In this document: piece after piece, positions 3,315 to 6,356 of the stretch
Numbering within the stretch: position 1 is the stretch's first letter
Layout: every line of letters starts with the position of its first letter
Source: Actinomycetes bacterium
GTDB lineage: Bacteria > Actinomycetota > Thermoleophilia > BMS3ABIN01
NCBI GenBank assembly: GCA_024276735.1
Contig: JAJRWQ010000072.1
Span: 1-34,954 of the forward strand
Length of the DNA stretch: 34,954 nucleotides
Reading direction: 5' to 3'
The notes under the pieces: model-generated
Databases searched by the model: none
Seen by the model: only the letters and a program-made list of their open reading frames with translations
What the model was told of the DNA's origin: nothing
Translations under genes and position numbers: made by a program

Positions 3315-4100
3315 GTGACTCCCTCGCTCGCGATCACCCTCTTCCTCATCGGTGCCGCCGGCGGCTTCCTTTCCGGCTGGCTCGGCATCGGCGGCGGCAT
3401 CGTGGTGGCGCCGCTGCTGCTCTACGTGCCCCCGTGGCTGGGGCTGCCACCCCTGGACATGAAGGTGGTGGCCGGCCTCACCATGGTGCAGAGCCTCTTT
3501 GCCACCGGGTCCGGGGTGCTGGTTCACCGCCGCTTTCACCACGTGAGCCGCCAGCTGGTGCTCTGGGCGGGCCTGAGTACCGCCGGGGCCTCCCTGGCGG
3601 GAGCGCTTGCTTCCGCCTACGTATCGGCGGAGCTGCTGCTGGGAATCTTCGCGGTGATGGCCTTGCTGGCCGCGGGCCTGATGTTCGTTCCCCGGCGCTA
3701 GCCGGAGCACGAGCCCCCCGCGTCTTCCGTCCGCCTCAACCGCCCCCTCGCCGTCGCCGTCTTCCTGATCATCGGCTTCAGCGGCGGCCTGGTGGGCCAG
3801 ACGGGTGCCTTCATCATCATCCCGGTGATGCTCTACGTCCTCGGCATCCCCACGCGCACGACCATAGGCAGCTCGCTGGGCGTGGTCTTCCTCGCCGGCA
3901 TCGCTGGCACGCTGGGCAAGGCGGCCGCGGGCAAGATCGCTTACGGGCCGGCGCTGTTCCTGGTCGCCGGGGCCCTGCTGGGGGCCCAGGGCGGGGGGCT
4001 GCTGTCCCAGGCCACCGGGCGCGCCTTCCTCCGGCACGTTCTGGCGGTGCTGATCGCGGCGGCGGCGGCCAGGATCGCCTGGGGGCTGGTGACGGGGTGA
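3315..4100 (+). pseudogene. TauE/SafE family membrane permease interrupted by in-frame TAG
   Basis: Two open segments in the same reading frame (3315-3698 and 3702-4097) are separated by one TAG at 3699-3701. Read together they give about 261 residues, the normal size of TauE/SafE (DUF81) anion or sulfite exporters. The first half begins with GTG at 3315 behind a CGGAGG site and contains GFLSGWLGIGGGIVVAPLL, the family's first repeat. The second half carries GFSGGLVGQTGAFIIIPVMLYVLG and TTIGSSLG, the second inverted repeat. The stop falls in the hydrophilic linker (VPRR-stop-PEHEPP) between the repeats, and no good start or ribosome site precedes the second half. A recent nonsense mutation, a base-call error or readthrough are all possible. 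If the stop is real, the protein made is a half-transporter of 128 residues. Substrate unknown. Confidence 0.72.
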
Positions 4101-4207
4101 AAGCCGTGAACGGGCCGGCCGGCGTGGAGGTACCGGCGCCCGCTTCTGGAAAAAACCCGTTGCTGCTGCTAATGTTTCCCTGTTTACCGAACGGAGGGGT
4201 GGAGCCA

Positions 4208-5266
4208 TTGGGCAATGAAGAGGTGCGGCTGACGCAGCTCGCGCACGGCGCCGGCTGAGCGTGCAAGCTGAGTCCGTCGGACTTGCAGTCAGTTCTGGAA
4301 CAGCTGCCTGCCATCCGCGATCCCCGCGTGATGGTGGGCTTCAACACCGGCGACGACTGTGCCGTCTACCGTCTCCGTGACGATCTCGCCATCATCCAGA
4401 CGGTGGACTTTTTCACTCCCATCGTCGACGATCCCTATGACTACGGCGCCATCGCCGCCGCCAACGCCCTGAGCGACGTCTACGCCATGGGGGCGAAGCC
4501 GCTGTTCGCCCTGAATATCGTCGGCTTTCCGGCCAAGGGGATCTCCATGGACGTACTGGCACAGATCCTCGAGGGCGGCGCCGCCAAGGTGGGGGAGGCC
4601 GGCATCGAGATCGTCGGCGGTCACACGGTGGACGACAGGGAGCCCAAGTACGGGCTGGCAGTGACCGGTGTCATCGACCCCGCGGAGATCGTCTACAACT
4701 CCACCGCCCAGGTGGACGACGTGCTCTTCCTCACCAAGCCGCTGGGCATCGGCATCATCACCACCGCCATCAAGCGGGGGCTGGTCGACGACGACGCCGC
4801 CAGGGAGGCGGTGGCGGTGATGGGGACCCTGAACCTCGCCGCCTCGCAGGCGATGGTGGCGGTGGGCGTGAGCGCCTGCACGGACGTCACCGGCTACGGC
4901 ATGCTTGGTCACCTGGGGGAGATGACCCGCGGCAGCGGCGTGGGCGCCCGCATCCGGGCCGGCTCGGTGCCGGTGCTGGGAGCCGCCCGCAACCTCGTCG
5001 AGGCCGACACCGGCATCGCTCCCGGCGGCACGGTGAAGAACCTGGACTTCGCCGACTCGTTCGTGGAGTTCGATCCCGCCCTCTCCCGGGCGGAGAGGCT
5101 GCTCCTGGCCGACGCCCAGACCTCGGGCGGCCTGTTGATATCCTGCCCGCCGGCCAGGGCCGACGACCTCGAGCAGGCGCTGCGGGAGGCAGGAGGATCA
5201 ACCGTGGCCAGGATCGGCGAGATCCATACCGAGGACGACCGGGGCCGGATCACGGTAGTGCCGTGA
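4208..5266 (+). CDS. selD: Selenide, water dikinase SelD containing selenocysteine (UGA at 4256-4258)
   Basis: SelD makes selenophosphate from selenide and ATP, the selenium donor for Sec-tRNA and for selenouridine in tRNA. Starting from TTG 4208, the N-terminus reads MGNEEVRLTQLAHGAG, then UGA, then ACKLSPSDL. This aligns residue by residue with the E. coli SelD N-terminus, putting the UGA at residue 17 (the catalytic Cys/Sec) and lysine at residue 20. The start is supported by GGAGG at 4193-4197. The rest is typical: GDDCAVY, the Asp-rich TVDFFTPIVDDPYDYG segment, ANALSDVYAMG, GGHTVDDREPKYG and TDVTGYGMLGHL. A SECIS-like hairpin follows the UGA. A caller that stops at UGA would truncate the gene to TTG 4283 and lose the active site. 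The product is 352 residues. Its 3' end overlaps the convergent gene by 17 bp. Confidence 0.93.
4262..4287 (+). promoter_or_regulatory. Candidate bacterial SECIS hairpin in selD mRNA
   Basis: Starting three bases after the UGA, TGCAA (4262-4266) pairs with TTGCA (4283-4287), and GTCC (4272-4275) pairs with GGAC (4279-4282). The apical loop is GTC (4276-4278), and a 5-nt bulge lies on the 5' side at 4267-4271. A stem-loop directly 3' of the UGA, with a small G/U-containing apical loop, is what the elongation factor SelB recognises in bacteria. Pairing was done by eye; no folding energy was calculated. Confidence 0.65.
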
Positions 5267-6356
5267 CCCCCGCCGCGATACGCTGCAGGCCCTCGTCGTA
5301 GAGGGGCGCCCTCGCCGACCAGTCGAAGCGCGCGGCCCTCCGGCGGGCCGTCTCCCCGTCCAGCAGCGACGGCTCCCGGAGCAGCGCCACCATTTTCTCC
5401 ACCAGCTCGTCCTCGTCACCGTAGAGGTACTTCTGCGGCACCAGCGCCGGGTAGTTCAGCCGGTTGGGCAACAGGGGATGGCAGCGGCAATACATCGCCT
5501 CCACCACCGCCATGCCGAAGAATTCGTGGCGGGCGGTGGAGACCACCAGGTGGCTGCCCCACAGCAGCTCCGCGTAGGCCGCGAAGTCGTCCAGGAAGCC
5601 GTAATGGACCAGCTCGTCGGCGAAGCGGGCGCGCGCCCGCGTGAACTCCCGGGGGTCGCGGCGGGCATTGTGCCCCGCCAGGGCCAGCTCGAATCTCACC
5701 CCGGCCTGCTTGACCCGCGCCAGCACCCGGAAAAAGGCCTCGGGGTCCTTGTCGTACTCCCAGCGGTGGTTCCAGAGGATGCGCGGCACGCGGCCCCGGG
5801 GACGCCGGTGGCGGTCGAAGCGCGCCAGGTCCAGCCCCGGCTCCATCACCTCGCTCTTCCCGCGCGCCGCCGCCACGCTCTCCAGGTTCTGGTAGTCGGG
5901 AAAATGCTTGAGGATCCGCGGCAGCTCCCGGAAGAACTCCCGCAGGTGGTAGCGGGAATTGACCCAGGCACGGTCGGCTGCCGCCAGGCTTGCCCAGTTG
6001 ATGTAGGCGTAGGTGAGATCGCGCTTCTCCAGGGGCGGCATGGGGTAGGTGGCCTGGTTCTCGTGGAAGTAGAGCACCACCGGCGTTTGCCAGAAGCGGC
6101 GGCGGGTAAGGGCGAGGAAGGTGGGGAGGTTCAGCATGTCGGAGGCGAGAACCAGGTCGCAGGGAGCCTCCGCCGCCAGCGCCCTCTCCGCCAGCGTCAC
6201 CGCCCCGCCGTGGAGGCGCCACTTCCAGTAGCGGGCCGGCAGCGTCAGCAGTTGCAGCCGGTGCCGGCTGTGGCGCGCCAGCCCCTCGAGGAAGTAGCGG
6301 TGGGACCCCCCGTGATAAGGCTCCACGGCCAATATGCTCAAGCTGTCACCGTTCAT
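5250..6356 (-). CDS. tRNA-queuosine alpha-mannosyltransferase-like glycosyltransferase (DUF3524/GTDC1 family)
   Basis: The 368-residue product is a GT-B glycosyltransferase. Its N-terminus matches the DUF3524 domain of QTMAN, the enzyme that adds mannose to queuosine at position 34 of tRNA-Asp. Diagnostic segments are ILAVEPYHGGSHRYFLEGL, LTLPARYWKWRLHG, ASDMLNLPTFLAL, VLYFHENQATYPMP, INWASLAAADRAWVNSRYH and the later KSEVMEPGLDL. The C-terminal half has the nucleotide-sugar fold: LWNHRWEYDKDPEAFF and STARHEFFGMAVVEAMYCRCHPLLPN, with the acidic EFFGMAVVEA motif of GT4 enzymes. The start is ATG 6356, with only a weak G-rich ribosome site. It is convergent with selD and overlaps it by 17 bp. 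Function as mannosyl-queuosine synthase is inferred from family membership; activity on another acceptor is possible. Confidence 0.85.
   Translation of the reverse strand: MNGDSLSILAVEPYHGGSHRYFLEGLARHSRHRLQLLTLPARYWKWRLHGGAVTLAERALAAEAPCDLVLASDMLNLPTFLALTRRRFWQTPVVLYFHENQATYPMPPLEKRDLTYAYINWASLAAADRAWVNSRYHLREFFRELPRILKHFPDYQNLESVAAARGKSEVMEPGLDLARFDRHRRPRGRVPRILWNHRWEYDKDPEAFFRVLARVKQAGVRFELALAGHNARRDPREFTRARARFADELVHYGFLDDFAAYAELLWGSHLVVSTARHEFFGMAVVEAMYCRCHPLLPNRLNYPALVPQKYLYGDEDELVEKMVALLREPSLLDGETARRRAARFDWSARAPLYDEGLQRIAAGVTALP

Follow-up and report, generated by a model that had tools for sequence, protein, structure and literature searches.

An in-frame UGA at the catalytic position of SelD, predicted to be read as selenocysteine in an uncultivated actinobacterial lineage

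Selenocysteine (Sec)-containing SelD is a prokaryotic selenoprotein family, the second most widespread. In the Sec-containing SelDs of bacteria (PMC1794560, PMC13188914), Sec lies within the N-terminal selenium-binding loop, its UGA codon occupies the catalytic position and is directly followed by a bacterial SECIS, and FdhA accompanies SelD in the selenoproteome. The selD gene found in the window, the whole 34,954-nucleotide stretch of DNA analysed here, was alike in all these respects (Table 1). Nothing essential differed, the particulars of the present case being its host, an uncultivated actinobacterial family, and the very short GUC loop of its hairpin. We put at about 97% the probability that this gene encodes a SelD containing Sec in an uncultivated actinobacterial lineage, and the protein so encoded belongs to a kind already well known in bacteria.

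Table 1. Features of the selD locus and of the second predicted selenoprotein gene
Feature	Position	Strand	Remarks
TauE/SafE-type transporter gene	3315..4100	+	Directly 5' of selD; PF01925, 135 bits; in-frame TAG at 3699-3701
Shine-Dalgarno-like GGAGGGG	4193..4199	+	Purine-rich; 8 nt 5' of TTG 4208; judged by position only
selD, selenide, water dikinase	4208..5266	+	352 aa; TTG start; terminal TGA at 5264-5266
UGA predicted to be read as selenocysteine	4256..4258	+	Residue 17, catalytic position, followed by Lys20
Outer SECIS hairpin UGCAAG...CUUGCA	4262..4287	+	Alternative upper stem; lowest computed energy in the window
Conserved SECIS helix GAGUCC-GUC-GGACUU	4270..4284	+	6 bp, 4270-4275 with 4279-4284; synonymous null and covariation
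Formate dehydrogenase alpha subunit FdhA	L126, G000:C117:27931-29931		848.6 bits; one in-frame TGA

The complete protein matched the SelD profiles TIGR00476 (386.8 bits; cut-off, 125) and NF002098 (380 bits; cut-off, 299), and both the N and C domains of AIR synthase (AIRS, PF00586; AIRS_C, PF02769) scored above their cut-offs. The solved Cys-type SelD chain 3u0o, homologous over the full length, was matched at an E value of 3.8e-84, with the active-site loop aligned gaplessly and query residue 17 lying on Cys17. While 3u0o has Cys at this residue, the present SelD has a Sec codon there, and the Lys expected three residues after the Cys/Sec was present in the alignment as U17-A-C-K20. The sequence-only reading had proposed that this SelD is itself a selenoprotein, with UGA at residue 17 in the region corresponding to the catalytic Cys/Sec17-Lys20; the profile and structural matches, together with the conservation described below, bore out both proposals.

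When the TGA was translated as U, the frame at 4208-5266 read LGNEEVRLTQLAHGAG-U-ACKLSPSDL..., with U as residue 17, and the first further stop after this codon was the terminal TGA. The peptide quoted in the earlier reading, RLTQLAHGAG-UGA-ACKLSP, proved exact when the frame was read again, as did its numbering from TTG 4208. In most of the relatives, a start codon lay no more than about one codon from the TTG 4208 site. At its 3' end, selD overlaps by 17 nt a convergent gene (5250-6356, minus strand) for a PF12038 tRNA-queuosine mannosyltransferase-like protein (185 bits); a gene of this kind was also observed near selD in two relatives (L017 and L028).

Mechanical ORF calling started selD at TTG 4283 and rendered a protein of 327 aa, so that the N-terminal active-site loop was lost, just as had been anticipated for standard gene callers. 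This call agrees with a reading in which UGA 4256 really terminates translation, the functional protein being made from TTG 4283. However, such a protein would have neither residue 17 nor Lys20, the segment upstream of 4283 (RLTxxAHGxGUACK) was conserved at the protein level, its UGA invariably included, in every same-family relative, and the genome encodes the Sec machinery (see below). Termination at this codon is thus very improbable, and a Sec-containing SelD translated from TTG 4208 is the preferred reading.

The conservation of the codon was studied in 60 relative genomes. All 16 full-length SelDs of the same family (genomes G001-G003, G005-G010, and G012-G018) contained exactly one TGA within the SelD match, as in the window. 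A scan of species genomes yielded 80 further SelD loci, the nearest of them in MAGs titled Thermoleophilia, Actinomycetes, or Actinobacteria. Across 110 SelD genes from several phyla, drawn from two sets that partly overlap and are not all independent, the position of residue 17 was occupied by U in 95 and by Cys in 15; the in-frame UGA is therefore found where homologues have Cys or Sec, as required of a bacterial selenoprotein. Duplicates were removed for the hairpin tests. Alternatively, the TGA might have arisen through a sequencing error, or through nonsense mutation of a Cys-type selD in decay, and two private in-frame TAG codons elsewhere in this genome (see below) indicate that such changes do occur in it. 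Yet the TGA was kept in 16/16 same-family relatives, which rules out a private sequencing error. The TGA was also present in most of the distant SelDs recovered, and the hairpin downstream of it is under selection. An error or a decaying gene is thus refuted by the conservation, and we give it scarcely any weight compared with a genuine Sec codon.

The conserved helix of this hairpin comprises nucleotides 15 to 20 paired with 24 to 29, counted from the UGA. It has 6 bp, a 3-nt loop, GUC, in which G and then U come first, and a spacing of 17 nt past the UGA, values that lie within the constraints given for bacterial SECIS elements (PMC13188914, Fig. 2A), the loop and the spacing both being short for the consensus. 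For the null model, each sequence was re-drawn with synonymous codons at the usage of its own gene, and positions were counted from the U of UGA. In 80 distinct Sec-type SelDs, the helix formed by nucleotides 16 to 20 with 24 to 28 had a mean of 3.84 of 5 pairs, compared to 2.60 under the null (standard deviation, 0.077; reached by 0/1000 draws), and sliding the pairing partners rendered 0.66 to 2.70 pairs. The corresponding values in 15 Cys-type SelDs were 2.47 and 2.18 pairs, a much smaller excess, with 40/1000 draws reaching the observed one. Covariation exceeded all shuffles (0/500 reached it) in a subset of 30 sequences picked for diversity, the compensatory exchanges being G-C/A-U at 16-28 and U-A/G-C at 18-26; since this subset was chosen by hand, the 80-sequence test deserves the greater trust.

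Codon usage was in agreement with these results. The codon of Lys20 and codons 22 to 25 (AGT CCG TCG GAC) were synonymously invariant across 17 genes of the family, and synonymous-codon identity reached 0.85 for codons 18 to 28, compared to 0.52 elsewhere, the top windows of the gene lying here. In the window itself, all six pairs of helix 15-20/24-29 were formed, which only 0.06% of synonymous versions equalled. The comparative and synonymous-codon tests are decisive, and they indicate that the hairpin following the UGA is under selection in Sec-type SelD. Thus, the SECIS-like hairpin that the sequence-only reading had placed beside the UGA was confirmed. That reading was correct in all its main points, and only the detail of the two-part stem has to be revised, the conserved part being the 6-bp helix.

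Folding energy by itself was weak evidence for the hairpin. The fold of 4250-4300 had an energy of -20.1 kcal/mol, with a z value of only about -1.5 against dinucleotide shuffles, and longer pieces rendered no support. Folding did show a hairpin, but its lowest-energy form was not the covarying helix: unlike the bacterial SECIS consensus (PMC13188914), it carried a competing upper stem, and the minimum free energy of the SECIS region (-13.0) belonged to this competing fold rather than to the conserved helix. The form that pairs UGCAAG with CUUGCA and has the different upper stem reached -11.8 kcal/mol, whereas the conserved helix on its own reached -6.2 kcal/mol. In the family, the lower helix UGCAAG/CUUGCA formed 5.71 of 6 pairs, compared to 4.40 expected. 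Outside the family, the alternative upper stem had no support, 427/500 null draws reaching it, whereas the conserved helix had such support (0/500). The two may represent alternative states, or states that succeed one another while the ribosome comes near. A scan of the window at the Rfam gathering thresholds found no RNA family, so that the SECIS is without support from a family model. A second helix, formed by nucleotides 30 to 34 with 42 to 46 from the UGA (of the GCGCAGGUNCUGCGC type, encoding LAQVLR), lies further downstream and was the most strongly selected pairing in Sec-type SelDs outside the family, where it may represent a different SECIS position or a part of the element.

The earlier reading had further implied that the genome encodes SelA, SelB, and tRNA-Sec, and had named the absence of selB and tRNA-Sec from a complete genome as grounds for rejecting it. 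This check did not refute it, since all three were found in the draft genome (1,611,728 bases in 120 contigs; 89.6% complete, 0.5% contamination). tRNA-Sec, with anticodon TCA (UCA), scored 69.9 bits (gathering score, 47) and selA scored 598.5 bits, while selB was present as two contig-end pieces, one on C13 (316.8 bits) covering the N-terminal part and one on C96 covering the C-terminal part, joined only by an identical overlap of 46 residues at the break. Because of this shared overlap, the genes selA, selB, and selC most likely lie together in a single cluster. At a strict threshold, 14 of 18 same-family genomes rendered a strong tRNA-Sec match. Two tRNA-Sec matches above the cut-off were observed in each of four same-family genomes (G004, G008, G012, and G016).

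FdhA (Table 1) is predicted from its sequence to be the second selenoprotein of the genome, its in-frame TGA lying in the motif HCARLUHAPS, at a known Sec position of the family. Members of the FlpD/MvhD family contained no in-frame TGA, and the draft, which is 90% complete, rendered no selenouridine synthase (TIGR03167) at an E value of ≤0.001. In-frame TGA in two genes, selD and fdhA, would also be expected if the codon were read throughout as another amino acid (Trp, Gly, or Cys). However, both codons lie at known Sec positions, and a tRNA-Sec with anticodon UCA is present. Moreover, most of the evident genes in the window end in TGA (21 of 28 listed frames), and selD itself does so at 5264; a general recoding is thus refuted, and we hold it even less probable than true termination or an error, leaving Sec as the preferred meaning of the UGA.

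The two private TAG codons lie in genes that are intact in relatives. At TAG 3699-3701 of the TauE/SafE-type gene, a change private to this genome, the closest relative has Glu, and the copies of the relatives are uninterrupted. The second is in a pyridine-nucleotide-disulphide oxidoreductase gene (L142:1586-1588; G000:C117, about 18385), of which 11 same-family homologues are uninterrupted. Pyrrolysine was considered as their meaning and rejected: no PylS match was found, TAG is an ordinary stop in the window, and neither codon occurs in relatives. Given the ordinary use of TAG and the lack of a PylS match, each is most plausibly a nonsense mutation or a consensus error of the draft genome.

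Several same-family genomes, and one Planctomycetota draft in three of its contigs, also have a TauE/SafE gene next to selD. It is conceivable, if doubtful, that the product of this gene is devoted to transporting a selenium species and forms a supply-and-activation pair with Sec-SelD, whose own synthesis would sense selenium through UGA read-through. The transporter gene bears a private stop here, and in the present genome the pair may therefore be falling apart. A literature search for TauE together with selD found nothing relevant. According to a recent review (PMC13188914), a specific high-affinity system for selenium transport has yet to be identified in prokaryotes, which makes this neighbour a lead worth testing.

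Judging from established knowledge of the pathway, translation of the selD mRNA would begin at TTG 4208. At the UGA, SelB, recruited by the hairpin just 3', would bring Sec-tRNA-Sec, so that Sec would be inserted at residue 17. Sec17 and Lys20 would then serve the ATP-driven conversion of selenide to selenophosphate, which SelA would use to form Sec-tRNA-Sec for SelD itself and for at least one formate dehydrogenase.

The locus cleanly illustrates an annotation trap: standard gene callers would lose the catalytic residue of SelD, even though the genome encodes the machinery that reads it. It also documents Sec decoding, together with Sec-SelD, as a trait present across an actinobacterial family that is uncultivated.
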